A stretch of DNA of 56,638 bases, taken from Candidatus Gastranaerophilales bacterium (GTDB lineage: Bacteria; Cyanobacteriota; Vampirovibrionia; Gastranaerophilales; Gastranaerophilaceae). Below the pieces are notes generated by a model that was given only the letters and a program-made list of their open reading frames with translations, made no database searches and was not told the origin of the DNA. Location of the stretch: positions 1 through 56,638 of the forward strand of contig JAFQHZ010000014.1 in assembly GCA_017415185.1 (NCBI GenBank), in the 5' to 3' direction. Numbering within the stretch: the first letter of the stretch is position 1; the number at the start of each line of letters is the position of its first letter. Both the position numbers and the translations under genes were made by a program. Shown piece by piece: positions 8,528-32,502 of the stretch.

Positions 8528-11162
8528 TTTCTTCCTGTTTTTTAAACTGCATTTCATACAATGCTTTATATTGACCATTTTCAATTTGCATTAATTGTTC
8601 ATGGGTGCCTAATTCTGCAAGTTCACCTTCGTTAATAACAGCGATTCTATCAGCATTTTTGATTGTTGAAAGCCTGTGTGCAATTATGAACACTGTTTTT
8701 TCTTTAACCAAATTATCCATCGCCTTTTGAACAATTGCTTCTGATTCATTATCAAGAGCCGAAGTTGCCTCATCAAGAATTACAATTGGCGCATTTCTAA
8801 GCATAGCCCTTGCAATTGCAACCCTTTGTCTTTGACCACCCGAAAGAGTTAAACCCCTTTCTCCTAGCTCAGTATCAAGCCCTTCAGGAAGTTCTGAAAC
8901 CATATCTTGTAAATGGGCAGATTTAATCGCCTGCATAAGCTCATCCATGCTAGCATCAGGATTTCCCATCATAATATTCTCTTTGATTGTTCCAGTGTAT
9001 AGGAAATTATCCTGAAAAACCATAGAAATATTTTGTCTTAAAGATTTCAAAGAAAATTCTTTTATATCAATTCCATCAAATTTAATTGAACCAGATTTTA
9101 TATCATAAAATCTTGGAATTAAATTAACCAAAGTTGATTTTCCTCCGCCAGAATTACCAACAATTGCCAATGTTTCATTTTTCTTAACTGACAAATTAAG
9201 ATTTTTCAACACAGGCTTGTTTGGAATATATTCAAAAACAACATTTTCAAAAGTAATATTTGAATTAAACCCTTTCATTTCTTTTGGGTTTTCGCAATCA
9301 ACAATTGCAGGAGTTAAATCAAACAATTCAAAAACCCTTCCCATTGCAACAAAAATGTTTTGAATTCCCGTTAAGGTGTTTCCAAGAGTCTTAACGGGCT
9401 TATAAAGTAACAACAAAGAAGTCACAAAAGAAGCAAAAGCCCCCGCTGTCATTTGACCCGTATTAATTAAATATGTTCCAACGCCCAAAACTGTTGCAAT
9501 TCCAAAAGAAGCAATTAGATACATCATTGGGCTCATCCAACCAGCACGCTTATATAAAGACATTCCAATATGATAACTTTCCCAAACTTTTTCTTGGAAA
9601 TATTTGTTTTGTCTTTCTTGCAAGCCATAAGCAGTCATCACTTTGTTGCCTGAATATGTTTCATTGATGTTTGTTGTAATTTTGCCTCCAATAACCATAT
9701 TTTTATTTGAAGCTTCTTTGATTCTTTTCCTAATTAAAATTACAGGAATAAAAGCAACGCAAAGAACAATTACACCAATAAAAGCAAGCTTCCAAGAGCT
9801 ATATATCATAACCGCAATTAAGCCTAAAGCTCCACAAAGACTTGTTGTGATTGTTTTAATGTTATCAACAATCCCTGCAGAAGCCGCCCCAGGATCACTC
9901 ATATATCTTGAAATTACAATACCCGATGAATTATCATCAAAAAATTGAGGATGCATGTGGATAAGGCGCTCAAACAAATCAAATTTAACATCGTTTGTTA
10001 TTCTAGCACTAACCCAGCTTGAAAAATAACCATTCAAATAACGAAGAACCCCTTGAATAGCAGCAAAAAGAATAACCCCGATTGGAATTACCCAAGCCAT
10101 TTGCAAGCTTGAAATTGAAATATTTAACCCATGCCAGCTATATTCAAAGGCTTGCCCTCCAATAACATAATCCATATATGGCTTAAGCGCAAAGGCCGTA
10201 ACGCCATCTAATAAACCCAAAGGAATAGCTATTGCAAAACCAAGAAAAATCCTAAACCAATATGGTTTAATATATGGAAAAATTCTTGATAACAACCAAG
10301 CGTATTTGAATGAATTTTGCGCAGAAGTTGTTGAGAGTTTATATGATTGCATTTCACAGTATTCATAATCTATAATATCGGCATATTTTTTCCAAATTTC
10401 TTTAAGATTTTTATCAGCAGTTGAAAAATCAGCCTTAACCTCATAAGAGAAATTAATTATTTTTCCATTAAATTCACTTAATGATTCGATAATTTTTGAA
10501 TGTTTTTTTCTATATTTAAATATATGAAAATTATATTTATAAGGAATCTTTTTCCATTTATCCTTTAGAAACACAGCATATAATATTTGATTATGCTTAG
10601 TCGAATAATGATATTCATTTCGTGCAAATTGAATAGCCTCTTCATAAAGTTTTTCTTCTCTAGCTTTTTTACAATCAATTACCAATATTGAAAAATCTAA
10701 AAATTCTTTTTTTGAGATACCAGTCTCTTTGCTCCATTCGTCCTCAATTTTTGGATGATTGACTCCTGCAAACATATAATCATCAAGTGAAAGATTGTTT
10801 AATTCCGCAATATCATCATTTACAATTGAAAATGAAGGCAATTTAATAATTTTATCAACATCAGGCAATAGTTTTGGCAAAACAAAAGGATATAAATTTA
10901 AAATATTTCCACCCAAATATAAATATTCAAAGGGTTTTAATGATTCTTTAACATCAACATATCTTATTTGCAATTTTTCATATTTGTTGACTAGCTTATC
11001 AAATTCGTTTTTGGCTTCTTGAAATATTTCTTCGTTGTGAACCAAAACTACTTCACAAGGAATGCTTGCATTTTCCATCAAGCTTGCGATAGAAATCAAA
11101 ACATATTTCCAACTATATATATTAAAAGGATAAGCAACAGTAGCTTTTTGCATATTTTTCAT
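8517..11162 (-). CDS. Fusion of a GT8-like domain to an MsbA-like ABC exporter
   Basis: An 881-aa single reading frame. Residues 1 to about 285 resemble the GT8 glycosyltransferase fold, with the FNSGV-type segment represented by DFSILVIDCKKAREE (156-170), but the metal-binding DxD position (near 109-111) reads Pro-Ser-Phe, so it may be inactive. Residues about 290-615 are a six-helix exporter membrane domain. Residues about 635-870 are the ATPase: Walker A GNSGGGKST at 669-677, signature LSGGQRQR at 773-780, Walker B VILDEAT ending at 800 and the switch histidine in IAHRLST. Relatives flip lipid A or lipid-linked glycans across the inner membrane. It starts 4 bases after the pyruvyl transferase gene, GGG-type site upstream. 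I infer that the N-terminal domain recognises the glycan to be exported. Confidence 0.85.
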   Translation of the reverse strand: MKNMQKATVAYPFNIYSWKYVLISIASLMENASIPCEVVLVHNEEIFQEAKNEFDKLVNKYEKLQIRYVDVKESLKPFEYLYLGGNILNLYPFVLPKLLPDVDKIIKLPSFSIVNDDIAELNNLSLDDYMFAGVNHPKIEDEWSKETGISKKEFLDFSILVIDCKKAREEKLYEEAIQFARNEYHYSTKHNQILYAVFLKDKWKKIPYKYNFHIFKYRKKHSKIIESLSEFNGKIINFSYEVKADFSTADKNLKEIWKKYADIIDYEYCEMQSYKLSTTSAQNSFKYAWLLSRIFPYIKPYWFRIFLGFAIAIPLGLLDGVTAFALKPYMDYVIGGQAFEYSWHGLNISISSLQMAWVIPIGVILFAAIQGVLRYLNGYFSSWVSARITNDVKFDLFERLIHMHPQFFDDNSSGIVISRYMSDPGAASAGIVDNIKTITTSLCGALGLIAVMIYSSWKLAFIGVIVLCVAFIPVILIRKRIKEASNKNMVIGGKITTNINETYSGNKVMTAYGLQERQNKYFQEKVWESYHIGMSLYKRAGWMSPMMYLIASFGIATVLGVGTYLINTGQMTAGAFASFVTSLLLLYKPVKTLGNTLTGIQNIFVAMGRVFELFDLTPAIVDCENPKEMKGFNSNITFENVVFEYIPNKPVLKNLNLSVKKNETLAIVGNSGGGKSTLVNLIPRFYDIKSGSIKFDGIDIKEFSLKSLRQNISMVFQDNFLYTGTIKENIMMGNPDASMDELMQAIKSAHLQDMVSELPEGLDTELGERGLTLSGGQRQRVAIARAMLRNAPIVILDEATSALDNESEAIVQKAMDNLVKEKTVFIIAHRLSTIKNADRIAVINEGELAELGTHEQLMQIENGQYKALYEMQFKKQEENAK

Positions 11163-25443: not shown

Positions 25444-26040
25444 GTGAAAATATCAAATCAAAACAAAATAAACTTTAAAGCAATAATCCCCAAGATAAGA
25501 TTGCAAGTTCAAAACAAAAAAACAGGAGAAAATATTCCTGCAACTTTTTATGAAATCGATTGCAAAGACAAATTTGACTGTCTCGAATTTAAAAGATTAT
25601 CAAAAGATTGGTGGTATGGGGAATCACTTTATCATTCAGTTTTTGGGAACTATTATAATGCAATTAACGATAACTATCGAATGAGACATTATGAAATTAA
25701 AACCGACGACGATGAAACAATTGCAATTTGCCGAACTTGGCAAACAGGGGAAAACTCTTGCGATATTGAATATTTAGAATCAAAACCAGATTCACAATAT
25801 CATTTTGCAGGACAAACAATTCTTGCTTCAATTGCAAAAGAAGAATTAAAAAGAAATTGCGAAAAATTAACAGTCTTAAGCCCGATTGCAAGCGCATATA
25901 GCTTTTACAAAAAAGCTTGCGGTTTTAGATATAACGACGATTTTCTTGAAATGAACAAATATGAACTCCAAGATTTCATCAAAAGAACAGAACAAAAAAC
26001 AAAACACAAACTTGAAGAGATAAAAAACCCGATTGAATAA
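25444..26040 (+). CDS. GNAT-like acetyltransferase family protein, paralogue 1, with NFKA tag
   Basis: A 198-aa protein starting at GTG, with no Shine-Dalgarno and no well-placed -10 box. The opening MKISNQNKINFKAIIPK carries the recurring N-terminal F-x-A segment. The C-terminal half has a strand IEYLESKP, then AGQTILASIAKEEL and KLTVLSP...AYSFYKKACGF, the order of elements expected for the acetyl-CoA site of GNAT enzymes, although the Q/RxxGxG/A loop is not classic. It is clearly paralogous to the protein at 31942-32502 (shared LQNKKTGE, DCKDK, YLESKP, FYKxACGF). Substrate unknown. The last codons form the left arm of a terminator. Confidence 0.7.
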   Translation: MKISNQNKINFKAIIPKIRLQVQNKKTGENIPATFYEIDCKDKFDCLEFKRLSKDWWYGESLYHSVFGNYYNAINDNYRMRHYEIKTDDDETIAICRTWQTGENSCDIEYLESKPDSQYHFAGQTILASIAKEELKRNCEKLTVLSPIASAYSFYKKACGFRYNDDFLEMNKYELQDFIKRTEQKTKHKLEEIKNPIE

Positions 26041-27913: not shown

Positions 27914-28013
27914 TTTCTACACTCCTTAGATATTCATACGATATAAATACCCAAAATTTTTCAAACGAAACATTGATTTTTAATATATATAACCGGATGT
28001 TCTTGAAAAAAAA

Positions 28014-28481
28014 TGTAATCTATTCAACTACCCTATAACTCCCTGTGTGTTTGAGTTTGAGGCTACTTCCCTCGGTTTTGGTTGGACAAAGTAATTATGT
28101 CCGAAATGTCCGTTTCGTGTCCTTTGCCTATCCTCAACTTGTCCCTCAAATGTCCTTTATATATTTAAACTTTAGCGTTTTTATAAAGTGTAATCGAAAA
28201 TTTTCGATTACATTTTCAATTACATTAGTTTTTTACTTCCCACTTTAGGGGAAGTACTTTTTTCCCTCTCATAATAACGACTTCCGCCCTAGAGGGAAGT
28301 TGTTAAACAAAATCTCGAAAAATGTAATTGAACACATTTCAATTACATTTTAATAAAATAGGTTTAAATTAAGTTATTAAAAGAGTTTAGGGCTAATTTT
28401 ATAAATATTGTTTTTATGGAAGAAAAGAGAAAATTTGCATAAATTTTTATGCAAATGTAATTGAAAGTATGTAATTGAAAA
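28014..28481. repeat. Eight copies of TGTAATTGAAAA in direct and inverted arrangement
   Basis: Copies lie at 28014 (partial), 28189-28200, 28201-28212 (inverted), 28213-28224 (inverted), 28323-28334, 28336-28347 (inverted), 28456-28467 and 28470-28481. The second and third together form a perfect 24-bp palindrome; the fifth and sixth form a hairpin with one base between the arms. Two hairpins with ACTTCC arms (28236-28256, 28280-28300) and one with ATTTGCATAAA arms near 28433-28456 lie between. The whole 27914-28562 stretch has no supported gene. It looks like an operator or iteron array controlling, or carried with, the restriction-modification gene that follows. Confidence 0.75.
28098..28155. 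repeat. Cluster of five TGTCC pentamers
   Basis: TGTCC occurs five times within 58 bases on the plus strand (about 28098, 28107, 28118, 28140 and 28151), with one inverted copy (GGACA) at 28084. This is far above what AT-rich sequence should give. It may be a decayed coding remnant or binding sites; nothing decides between these. Confidence 0.4.
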
Positions 28482-28562
28482 TTTTTGTAATAATAAATAA
28501 AAAATGTTAAGTTTTTGCCCTGCATTTTAAAAGAAATTAGTATATAAATGGAGAGTTTAATT

Positions 28563-31382
28563 ATGAATACGATGCCATTAGAAAAAGATACCATATATTT
28601 AATTAACAGAAGTCTTGAGAATTTAGGCTGGAAGTTTGAGGGTAAAGATAAAAATGTCTATCAGGAACAACCAAGAACAGAGGCTGAAAGACGAGTTTTA
28701 GAACACAAACGTCCTGACTATGTTTTGTATTCAAAAGATCATGAACCCTTAATTGTTATTGAGGCAAAGAAAAAAGGAGAACGTATTGATTCTGCTCTTG
28801 AACAGGGTATTTTTTATGCTAAAAAATTAAAAGCGCCTTTAGTTTTTGCAACTGACGGCGTATTTTGCAAATCTTTCCATACTCAAGCAAATAAGACACC
28901 ATTGCTTAATGGTGAAGAACTTGACGAATTTATTCGTGAAGCCATGGCTATGAAATTTTTGGGTGAATGGAATGTGAATACCGTCAGTCAAAAAGTTCAA
29001 TACGACAGACAAGAACTGATTAAAATATTTGATACTGCCAACAACATGCTACGTAGTGAGGGTTTAAGAGCAGGCGAAGAACGTTTTGGCGAATTTGCAA
29101 ATATATTATTTTTGAAACTCATTAGCGAAAGTGAACAAAATAAACTTAATATGGGTATTCATACTGATTTTAATTTTTCAACTTGTAGTTGGGATATAAT
29201 CAAAAAACAATCATCAAGTAGCCGTGTTGAATACATAAATAACATGGTTTACAAAAAATTGAACGATTTGTATAATACCGAAATTTTTACATCATTAAAG
29301 ATTAGAGATAATGATGTGCTTAAAGAAATCATGGGATTACTTGACCCATTGGTTTTGACAGATATTGATAGTGATGTAAAGGGTGATGCCTTTGAATATT
29401 TCTTAAAAGCTTCAACTGCTACAAAGAACGATTTAGGTGAATATTTCACACCAAGACATATTGTAAAAACTATGGTGCGTTTGGTTAATCCGCAAATAGG
29501 CGAAAAAGTTTATGATCCGTTCTGTGGAACAGGCGGTTTTTTGATTGAAAGCTTTAGGCATATTTACAACAATATGCCACGCAACAAAGAAACAGAAAAA
29601 ATGTTGCGAGAAAACACTATTTTTGGTAATGAAATCACAAGTACGGCAAGAATTACCAAAATGAATATGATTTTGGCAGGTGACGGACATAGTGGCATTC
29701 ACATGCAAGATAGTTTGGCAAATCCAGTCGAGGGCAAATATGATGTTGTTTTAGCAAATATGCCGTATTCACAAAGGACAAAACATGGTTCATTGTATGA
29801 TTTACCGTCTACAAATGGTGACAGTATTTGTGTTCAGCACTGCATGAAAGCAATTAGCTCTACATCTGAAAACGGCAGAATGGCTATTGTCGTTCCTGAG
29901 GGATTTTTATTTAAAAAGGAATTAGCAAAAACAAGAGAATATTTGCTTGAAAATAGTGAATTGCAAAGTATTATATCACTTCCTCAAGGCGTATTTTTGC
30001 CATATACAAGTGTTAAAACAAATATTATTTATGCAACTAAAATTAACCAAAAAATTGCAAAAGCTAGTAAAAGAAGTAATTTTTGGTATTTTGAGGTAAA
30101 AAGTGACGGATATTCACTTGATAATCACAGACGTAAACTTGAAACTCCAAGCGATTTACAAAAATATGAAGAATTTCGTAAATTTGATTCTGAACAAGAA
30201 GAAGAGATGTTTAATGTTGGATTTAATATTATTCCATTAGAAAAAGTAGCTGAAAATAGATATATATTATTAGGTAATCGTTACAAAGCAAGAAAAAGTG
30301 TAAATACAAAATATGGTACAGTACAATTAAATCAAATTCTTGATTATGAACAACCTACAAAGTATATAGTTCACAGTACAGAATACAATGACAAATTTCC
30401 AACACCTGTTCTGACAGCAGGTAAAACTTTTCTGTTAGGTTATACAGATGAACGTGACGGTATATATCAAGCGACAAAAGAAAATCCAGTAATTATTTTT
30501 GATGATTTTACAACAGCAACAAAACTTGTAGATTTTCCTTTTAAGGTTAAATCTTCAGCTATGAAGATTCTAAAAACCAAAAAAAATGATATAAATATAC
30601 GATATGCGTATTACGCAATGAACGGCATAAAATTCAATAGTATAACCCACAAAAGATATTGGTTAGATGAATTTTCCAAATTACATATTCCATTACCATC
30701 ATTACAGGTTCAAAATAGAATAGTTGAAGAGCTGGATAGTTATCAACAAATTATTGACGGGGCAAAAAAAATTGTAGACAATTACAAACCAAATATCAAA
30801 ATTAGACCAGAATATAATATGGTAAAAGTCGAAGATGTTGTTGATTTTATAAGTGGAGTAACTCTATCAGTTGGACAATGTGAAGATAAAAACGGTATTC
30901 CATTAATAACAATAGCAGATGTCGATGAAAATGGAACTATAATTTATGACACAATTCGTAAAGTAAGAACATCAAAAAATACAACAAAACTTCAAAAGGG
31001 CGATTTGCTTTTTAACTGGCGTAATGGTAGCAAACATTTAGTTGGAAAAACTGCTTTGTTTGATAAAGAAGGGGAGTATATATTTGCTTCATTTTTATTA
31101 GGTTTACGACCAAGAAAATCTGTTGATAATAGATTTTTATGGATAATTCTTAATCAATATAGAAGAAATGGTATATATTTGAATCAAATGAGACAACAAG
31201 TAAATGGTTTATTTAATAGAGAAGAATTAAAAGATATTTTAATCCCACTACCACCTATTGAAGAACAAAAAGAAATTGTTGCAAAAATTGAGGCAGAACA
31301 AGCTTTAATAGAACCCAACAAACAAATTATTGAAGTTTTTTCAAAGAAAATTCAAGACCGAATTAGTGAAATTTTCCAATAA
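28563..31382 (+). CDS. Single-chain restriction-modification enzyme (nuclease, N6-adenine methylase and specificity domains)
   Basis: A 939-aa protein joining three parts. Residues about 1-135 are an HsdR-type N-terminal nuclease domain with PDYVLYS and, 11 residues on, IEAKK, the PD-(D/E)xK catalytic pattern. Residues about 145-560 are an HsdM-like N6-adenine methylase with DPFCGTGGFLIES (SAM site) and LANMPYSQR, a variant of the NPPY motif. Residues about 575-939 are an HsdS-like region with two target-recognition domains, each ended by a conserved helix (IPLPSLQVQNRIVEEL and IPLPPIEEQKEIVAKI). No helicase domain is present. This matches type IIB/IIG enzymes, which both cut and methylate. 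The start at 28563 has GGAGAG upstream. It stands alone and is likely horizontally acquired. Confidence 0.88.
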   Translation: MNTMPLEKDTIYLINRSLENLGWKFEGKDKNVYQEQPRTEAERRVLEHKRPDYVLYSKDHEPLIVIEAKKKGERIDSALEQGIFYAKKLKAPLVFATDGVFCKSFHTQANKTPLLNGEELDEFIREAMAMKFLGEWNVNTVSQKVQYDRQELIKIFDTANNMLRSEGLRAGEERFGEFANILFLKLISESEQNKLNMGIHTDFNFSTCSWDIIKKQSSSSRVEYINNMVYKKLNDLYNTEIFTSLKIRDNDVLKEIMGLLDPLVLTDIDSDVKGDAFEYFLKASTATKNDLGEYFTPRHIVKTMVRLVNPQIGEKVYDPFCGTGGFLIESFRHIYNNMPRNKETEKMLRENTIFGNEITSTARITKMNMILAGDGHSGIHMQDSLANPVEGKYDVVLANMPYSQRTKHGSLYDLPSTNGDSICVQHCMKAISSTSENGRMAIVVPEGFLFKKELAKTREYLLENSELQSIISLPQGVFLPYTSVKTNIIYATKINQKIAKASKRSNFWYFEVKSDGYSLDNHRRKLETPSDLQKYEEFRKFDSEQEEEMFNVGFNIIPLEKVAENRYILLGNRYKARKSVNTKYGTVQLNQILDYEQPTKYIVHSTEYNDKFPTPVLTAGKTFLLGYTDERDGIYQATKENPVIIFDDFTTATKLVDFPFKVKSSAMKILKTKKNDINIRYAYYAMNGIKFNSITHKRYWLDEFSKLHIPLPSLQVQNRIVEELDSYQQIIDGAKKIVDNYKPNIKIRPEYNMVKVEDVVDFISGVTLSVGQCEDKNGIPLITIADVDENGTIIYDTIRKVRTSKNTTKLQKGDLLFNWRNGSKHLVGKTALFDKEGEYIFASFLLGLRPRKSVDNRFLWIILNQYRRNGIYLNQMRQQVNGLFNREELKDILIPLPPIEEQKEIVAKIEAEQALIEPNKQIIEVFSKKIQDRISEIFQ

Positions 31383-31596
31383 ACACAATAATATTTCAAA
31401 ACCAACTGTCCAAAACTCTCATTTTTAGAGTTAAATTCTCGTTTTGCAGTCGGAAATTCTCAACCTGCAAGACAATTTATATTTAAAAGTATTGCTATTT
31501 TTTTAAATTTAAAGGATGGAATCATAGCAAAATGCAAACAATTGAGCATTTTTCAAGAGGGCGACCCTTGAGGTCGCATCCCGAATGGCAACAAAA

Positions 31597-31686: not shown

Positions 31687-31697
<11 letters not shown>

Positions 31698-31734
31698 ACG
31701 GTAATTTTATTTAATTGTCTCAGGGCTTGCGGTA
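31687..31734. repeat. 48-bp tandem duplication, copy 1 (tRNA 5' end plus promoter)
   Basis: This 48-base unit contains the first 11 bases of the tRNA gene and its upstream promoter region. It recurs at 31796-31843 with one substitution and an offset of 109 bases. Confidence 0.9.
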
Positions 31735-31795
31735 GCGCTCTGCGCTATCCTTCCCTCCACTTCGGAAGATACTTAATCTTCCTCGCGGAGTCCTT

Positions 31796-31843
31796 GCCAT
31801 AGCCCCACGGTAATTTTATTTAGTTGTCTCAGGGCTTGCGGTA
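31796..31843. repeat. 48-bp tandem duplication, copy 2
   Basis: The distal copy repeats the TAAAAT box and the first 11 bases of the tRNA, then runs into unrelated sequence containing the inverted repeat GGAAGAT...ATCTTCC. Transcription from it would read through to the real tRNA. A further short piece (ACCCCACGG) follows at about 31844-31852. Confidence 0.9.
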
Positions 31844-31941
31844 ACCCCACGGTTTAACTTTAATCATTCTAGCAAATAATGAAATATTTTCAAGTTAATT
31901 TTTCATTCGCAATTTTAATCTTTCACAAGACTTACTAAATT

Positions 31942-32502
31942 ATGAAATTAAATATTCAAAATGTATCCTTTAGTGCATTAATCCCCAAAGAAAAAACCGC
32001 CTTACAAAACAAAAAAACAGGCGAATTTGAACCTGCGATTTTTTGCGAAGTTGATTGCAAAGACAAAAACGATTATCAAATTTTCACTCCATTAAAAGAA
32101 TCCTGGGAATATGGGCTTTGCCTTGAATTAACTTCAAATTGGAAATATGGAAACTATGCCAATAAAATTCCCGATCCTCGTGGGCATTATATCTTACAAA
32201 AAGAAAGCGGCGAAATTCTTGCAATATGCAGAACTACTGAAGCAGATGGCACTATACGAATCGACTATCTTGAATCAAAACCGCAAACAGTCTATCGCTT
32301 TGCTGGTCAAATGATGTTATCAAGAATTGCAAAAGAAGGAATCAAAAAAGGCTACAAAAAATTAACAATTCCATATCCTGTTGAAGGAACAGAAAGATTT
32401 TACAAAAATGCTTGCGGTTTCAAAGAACAAAATGATGGATATATTATGGAAAACGAAGAATTAATTGATTTTGTAGCTAATTCACCAAGAAAAATCAATT
32501 AA
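31942..32502 (+). CDS. GNAT-like acetyltransferase family protein, paralogue 2, with VSFSA tag
   Basis: A 186-aa protein opening MKLNIQNVSFSALIPK, with the F-x-A segment at residues 10-12. The C-terminal half reads IDYLESKP, then FAGQMMLSRIAKEGIKKGYKKL and TERFYKNACGF, as in GNAT acetyltransferases: a helix that would hold acetyl-CoA followed by the strand and the F-Y-x-x-x-G-F element. It is homologous to the protein at 25444-26040 across its whole length. No Shine-Dalgarno is visible. Substrate unknown; the strong match of tag and body between the two copies shows the tag is part of the inherited protein. Confidence 0.72.
   Translation: MKLNIQNVSFSALIPKEKTALQNKKTGEFEPAIFCEVDCKDKNDYQIFTPLKESWEYGLCLELTSNWKYGNYANKIPDPRGHYILQKESGEILAICRTTEADGTIRIDYLESKPQTVYRFAGQMMLSRIAKEGIKKGYKKLTIPYPVEGTERFYKNACGFKEQNDGYIMENEELIDFVANSPRKIN

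Follow-up and report, generated by a model that had tools for sequence, protein, structure and literature searches.

The repeat-rich region upstream of a restriction-modification gene in a Gastranaerophilales bacterium is one end of a mobile element located near a tRNA gene

The repeat-rich stretch in front of a restriction-modification (RM) gene of Candidatus Gastranaerophilales is the left end of a 3,498-bp mobile element (27984-31481 of the window, by which is meant the whole 56,638-nucleotide stretch of DNA analysed), and not an operator of the RM gene. The sole cargo of the element is the window gene at 28548-31382, and its right end lies near a tRNA-Met gene. The element probably belongs to a kind of non-autonomous DNA transposon that targets tRNA genes and brings phage-defence genes with it, and the repeat region would be its tRNA-distal end. 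Its features are as follows.

27979..27983, no strand: left copy of the target duplication, TTTAA, identical to 31482-31486 and at a fixed offset from the termini
27984..28485, no strand: left (tRNA-distal) end, starting with the terminus TATATATAACCGG; conserved in whole or in part in 11 of 21 elements
about 28085-28180, no strand: TGTCC-rich part of the left end
28189..28481, no strand: array of seven TGTAATTGAAA sites including the palindrome, starting at 28189, 28201, 28213, 28323, 28336, 28456 and 28470; putative transposase-binding sites
about 28230-28310, no strand: ACTTCC inverted repeats of the left end
28548..31382, plus strand: cargo, a 944-aa single-chain RM protein (HSDR_N, N6_Mtase and Methylase_S; Pfam, PADLOC)
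31391..31481, minus strand: right (tRNA-proximal) end, from a match of model R1 (31391-31476) and alignments; terminus TATAAATTGTCTTGCAG on the minus strand, ATTGTCTTGCAG starting at 31476
31482..31486, no strand: right copy of the target duplication, TTTAA
31623..31697, minus strand: tRNA-Met (cat), intact, chromosomal and outside the element, which lies 136 bp past the tRNA 3' end

Partial tandem copies of the tRNA-Met end and its flank occur upstream of the tRNA (31692-31860), and a pair of paralogous genes (25444-26040 and 31942-32502, 43% identity) brackets the island.

The repeat cluster is real. Allowing one mismatch, seven TGTAATTGAAA sites lie within 541 bp (27960-28500) against seven elsewhere in the window (0.12 per kb), and none of 300 dinucleotide shuffles of the repeat region attained seven. 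An earlier sequence-only reading of this DNA had counted eight elements in about 470 bases; the cluster stands, while the count comes down to seven sites within one mismatch of the 12-mer TGTAATTGAAAA, two of them exact, spanning about 290 bp (28189-28481). The perfect 24-bp palindrome it placed at 28189-28212 is present. With two mismatches allowed, the 12-mer is not enriched in the window (60 observed vs 52 expected), so that the reading's point is valid for clustering only: what is unusual about this 12-mer is where it gathers, not how often it occurs. In the genome-wide motif search that it proposed, five of 16 genome sites of TGTAATYGAAAW fell in the repeat region, and the reversed-pattern control gave seven. 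A difference in composition from the flanks, also claimed, is slight and makes a weak argument: the G+C fraction is 0.30-0.36 in the left half of the region and 0.18-0.20 at 28300-28599, as compared with roughly 0.23-0.39 in the near flanks. The hairpins with ACTTCC and ATTTGCAT arms exist as inverted repeats in the DNA, but an alignment of five left ends gave no covariation support to a conserved RNA fold (covariation term +6.4), and in an Rfam scan only tRNA exceeded its gathering score; a structured RNA was rejected on both grounds.

Contig C43 of the window's own genome has a second copy of the repeat region, with 70-73% identity in pieces, and the congener G017 a third, with 83% identity. 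The left end adjoins different cargo, both within the same genome and in other genomes. On the opposite side of each cargo there is a second conserved sequence of about 90-140 bp, the right end, with the outer consensus ATWGTCTTGCAG and an outermost 12 bp that is nearly invariant. The model of this right end, R1, has 17 strong matches (>60 bits; matches <40 bits were left out of the count) in 11 of 383 genomes of the order, from one family and six genera. A pattern scan of the GTDB collection for right ends returned 22 loci, many of them in Gastranaerophilales or in MAGs from ruminant or deer gut. The 21 right ends considered here exclude, from 24 loci, L175, L179, L193 and L194, judged to be chance matches, and also L177, L188 and L189, where the outer 30-40 bp are kept, or 70 bp weakly; GTDB loci duplicating G-labelled genomes were counted once. 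A recognisable left end, whole or partial, lies beyond 11 of these 21, and the elements are about 0.7-6.9 kb long. The right ends L171 and L176 are on sheep-colon contigs labelled Alphaproteobacteria and Helicobacteraceae, possibly through mis-binning or else through genuine transfer across phyla. Unlike the other left ends, that of C43 has an insertion of about 90 bp, palindromic and repeat-like (L038, about 10130-10225). Three elements that differ in cargo share, directly inside their left ends, an ORF of 71 aa, 96-100% conserved, which also occurs several kb away from the TniA gene of L118 discussed below (L039:9283-9495, L225:10055-10267, L050:9314-9526, L118:2887-3099).

The position of the elements relative to tRNA genes is regular. 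For 19 of the 21 right ends there is a tRNA upstream, on the same strand, in constant orientation and at a variable distance of 41-211 bp; the tRNAs used are Met, Ser (gct, gga, tga), His, Gln, Gly and Arg. At the right end in G111C6 there is an apparent tRNA-Ser 3' fragment (judged by eye), and no tRNA was seen upstream of that in G173C12. Orthologous sites occur both with and without the element. At tRNA-Ser(gct), next to a lytic transglycosylase gene, a right end is found in three of 22 congeners with enough sequence, and the three occupants differ in cargo (type I RM; Mrr-type nuclease with AbiH; type III RM). In G006 a degraded right end is found at this site, and in the remaining congeners the right-end core was not found there. 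At the tRNA-Met site, G003 and G020 have the same gene order on the tRNA side as the window, without the element; they do not share its left flank, so the exact sequence before insertion is not readable from them.

In the window, TTTAA (plus strand) stands directly outside TATATATAACCGG on the left and TATAAATTGTC on the right (minus strand). At the same offset, ATGGA is duplicated around the element of G149 and GTCAT around that of G373. Exact 5-bp duplications are thus present in three of the six copies in which both termini are delimited, at an offset recognised only once the flanks had been inspected; cross-pairings of the flanks match in 0 of 30 cases (by eye). The flanks of C43, G017a and G338, compared by eye, have no matching 5-bp duplication. 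In G017a the tRNA-Met/xerC neighbourhood is joined to that of dnaJ, which in G000 follows a gene that we take, from inspection by eye, to be ruvB-like; the flanks of G017a have therefore been rearranged. In G338 the left end adjoins an older right end that lacks its outer bases. Unlike these two, the missing duplication of C43 stays unexplained. Stacked insertions, in which newer ends lie inside older right ends at or beside GTGAG, occur at L230 (G338), L176 and L265, and suggest a preference for older ends as targets. The termini read TANNNATTGTC on the right and TATAGATAAAC or TATATATAACC at the other end, so that none has the form 5'-TGT...ACA-3'; Tn7 termini begin TGT. Transposases of the Tn7/Tn5053/Mu group typically duplicate five bases of the target, and tRNA-homing Tn7-like transposons have such duplications in common with the present elements.

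The association with tRNA genes, the fixed orientation and the nearly invariant outer 12 bp of the right end might also be expected if the ends were attachment sites of a tyrosine or serine recombinase, in an integrative island that has lost its integrase, like other tRNA-associated islands; the left end in G338 that abuts an older right end without its outer bases could be read in the same way. This is unlikely, however, because insertion is behind the tRNA and not inside it, at varying distance, and because three copies have terminal 5-bp duplications. Although 16 of 28 genomes contain the ATWGTCTTGCAG pattern (the reversed control is rare), its core is absent as a free site behind tRNAs: among 30 hits examined in the genus there was, besides right ends, a single one behind a tRNA, abutted by another transposon, and a pre-existing attachment site of this sequence was rejected on that account. 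No integrase was seen in the cargo. The only recombinase seen, upstream in G006C7, is a segment of a resolvase that has an early stop and is not linked to these ends elsewhere; it behaves as cargo, and a serine resolvase was therefore rejected as the mobiliser.

The cargo between these ends is diverse, and by PADLOC and Pfam it is mostly of defence type. C43 has type I HsdM and HsdS; G017a an NgoPII-type (type II) endonuclease with a C5 methylase; G373 and G006C7 type IIG RM; G149 type III RM with a TIR protein; G005C1 Mrr and AbiH; G111C13 a GmrSD-type system with an ADP-ribosylglycohydrolase; G269C31 an EcoRI-type methylase with a DUF262 nuclease; and G111C6 Gabija. That of G017b is a type III RM, judged from its likeness to G149 alone. 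PADLOC gave matches for 16 of the 17 cargo proteins scanned, the exception being the ADP-ribosylglycohydrolase. The ORFs of G338 and G111C5 are unlike defence genes, so the cargo is not invariably of this kind. Among the ORFs listed for 13 elements, some of them scanned with profiles, no transposase or integrase was seen, nor a TnsB/TniA transposase with a TnsC/TniB ATPase.

These cargo genes bear on the proposal that the region is the operator or promoter of the RM gene, with its repeats as cooperative binding sites for a regulator, or for the RM protein, that would control expression. The palindromic, clustered sites do resemble operators, and the RM start codon of the window follows the region directly; in G017a too the RM genes lie downstream of it. 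Yet the direction of the cargo varies, and in C43, G149, G373 and G111C13 it faces the left end; the C43 genes read towards the region, which cannot therefore be their promoter. The cargo proteins come from different families and the left end also occurs with non-RM cargo. The sequence-only reading had already remarked that no RM controller gene is nearby, and none was seen adjoining the window gene, which counts against regulation of the controller-protein type; its suggestion that the enzyme regulates itself is not supported, because the same region elsewhere adjoins unrelated cargo facing either direction. An operator is thus very unlikely as the explanation of the region, although the left end may serve as a cargo promoter in a secondary role. 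There is hardly any chance that the repeats are iterons of a plasmid or phage origin, or of a chromosomal one, as might be suggested by their density, the local AT-richness and a local minimum of the cumulative GC skew near 28300, given that no replication gene was seen among the ORFs of the element or its relatives, that the skew change tracks gene direction and dnaA is on another contig (for which a chromosomal origin was rejected), and that the repeats have no convincing plasmid, phage or viral relative: the plasmid check gave weak matches only, each ≤10% of the query with no listed E-value <0.01, and a left end used as query had zero phage matches, so a plasmid or phage origin was also rejected. 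The alternative offered by the sequence-only reading, a lost mobile element, was right as to mobility but not as to loss, for both ends and the 5-bp target duplication are in place, nor as to a plasmid or phage source.

To return to the transposon, clusters of at least three TGTAATTGAAA were found in left ends only, in a scan of 77 loci (992 kb). The two ends have different repeat motifs: seven or more 11-bp TGTAATTGAAA sites on the left, and on the right two repeats of GTCGGACA type about 20-22 bp apart (by eye). The left end of G269C6 has diverged, yet keeps nine TGTAATTGAAA sites. C43 and G111C13 have no TGTAATTGAAA and G269C31 has one, and all three carry the variant TGTAATTTATT at several positions, while the left ends of G017a and G373 are mosaics of TGTAATTGAAA and TGTAATTTATT. 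Motifs that are kept in a diverging background, and that change together, are as expected of binding sites for a protein that recognises the ends. Judged by this pattern, the TGTAATTGAAA sites are most likely transposase-binding sites.

The 5-bp duplications and the repeat-array ends fit transposition of Tn7/Tn5053/Mu type, mobilised in trans; we infer the class of enzyme, its action in trans and its binding to TGTAATTGAAA. Each end is an array of short repeats, with TGTAATTGAAA in tandem, inverted and palindromic arrangement on the left. In the mechanism proposed, a DDE transposase of Tn7/Tn5053/Mu type (TnsB/TniA), together with an ATPase, would be supplied by another element, bind the arrays and then pair both ends. 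Insertion would take place a few tens of bp behind a tRNA gene, which would stay intact, and would produce the 5-bp duplication. Among the sequences searched, neither an autonomous copy with these ends nor a helper for them was found. The element behaves like a trans-mobilised Tn7/Tn5053-type transposon; because it lacks a transposase and its termini differ, membership of that group is not claimed.

The same genus contains TniA-type (rve + Mu-transpos_C) transposases and TniB-type ATPases, in elements likewise located just behind tRNAs. One conserved end of such elements, about 320 bp, is found behind tRNA-Met (G005), tRNA-Lys (G006) and tRNA-Leu (G001), a partly matching one behind tRNA-Ala (G008), and there is a related TniA element behind tRNA-Gly in the window's genome. 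The TniA/TniB transposons at L118 (G000:C43), L121, L124, L131 and L265, behind tRNA-Gly, -Lys, -Leu, -Ala and -Met, have a conserved 5'-TATA...CAGGAC terminus; at L265 the TniA-element end is joined directly to the outermost 18 bp of one of the right ends described here. For four TniA elements, a search at the expected sequences did not reveal the distal ends or duplications. The end repeats of the TniA elements are of TTGCACT type, not TGTAATTGAAA or GTCGGACA, which makes them neighbours in the niche and not proven helpers; as the direct autonomous parent they were rejected for this difference in repeats. In the L118 element, a phage-integrase SAM-like domain is encoded by the third ORF. According to passages of PMC10293859 (Mol Cell 2023), a Tn7-like element homes 30-33 nt downstream of tRNA-Leu, and a selector, TnsF, has a XerH-like recombinase domain. 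Taken with the SAM-like domain of L118, this is a lead only.

A limited literature search turned up no description that we recognised as that of these elements, but several known systems share features with them. As described in parts of PMC10293859 and PMC8649781, tRNA-homing Tn7-like transposons (e.g. the cyanobacterial CAST I-D element CyCAST) also insert behind a tRNA and leave the gene unharmed, have asymmetric repeat-array ends, and carry diverse defence cargo, RM being the commonest. The present elements differ from these in being much smaller, in having no transposase, ATPase or target selector, in termini that start with TA rather than TGT, and in using several different tRNAs. They share with the TniA/TniB transposons of the genus (L118, L121, L124, L131) the niche behind tRNAs, the same host genomes, and a right terminus that begins TATA with CAGG nearby, whereas those transposons encode TniA and TniB and have end repeats of the other type. 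Mobile insertion cassettes (MICs) are likewise transposon-like ends around passenger genes, without a transposase; they have the short inverted-repeat ends of insertion sequences, however, while the present elements have long arrays and tRNA targeting. Tycheposons resemble them as tRNA-associated cargo islands in relatives of cyanobacteria, but their attachment site is the tRNA itself and their enzymes are tyrosine recombinases; the present elements showed neither.

A wider view, held tentatively, is that these elements form a family of satellite transposons with mainly phage-defence cargo and no mobility gene, reliant on the transposases of others and using many tRNAs, in which defence systems (all main RM types, Gabija, AbiH/Mrr, GmrSD) may be swapped between the same ends while the arrays would change in concert with helper specificity. 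There is also a caution here: an RM gene may be preceded by dense repeats that are not its operator. Defence systems pass from genome to genome and accumulate at hot spots, often by a vehicle that is unknown; surveys anchored on transposases, such as that described in part of PMC8649781, cannot detect units without one. The present ends provide an anchor for finding the vehicle, predict a location behind tRNAs for defence genes, and open the relation of helper and satellite among transposons to test.
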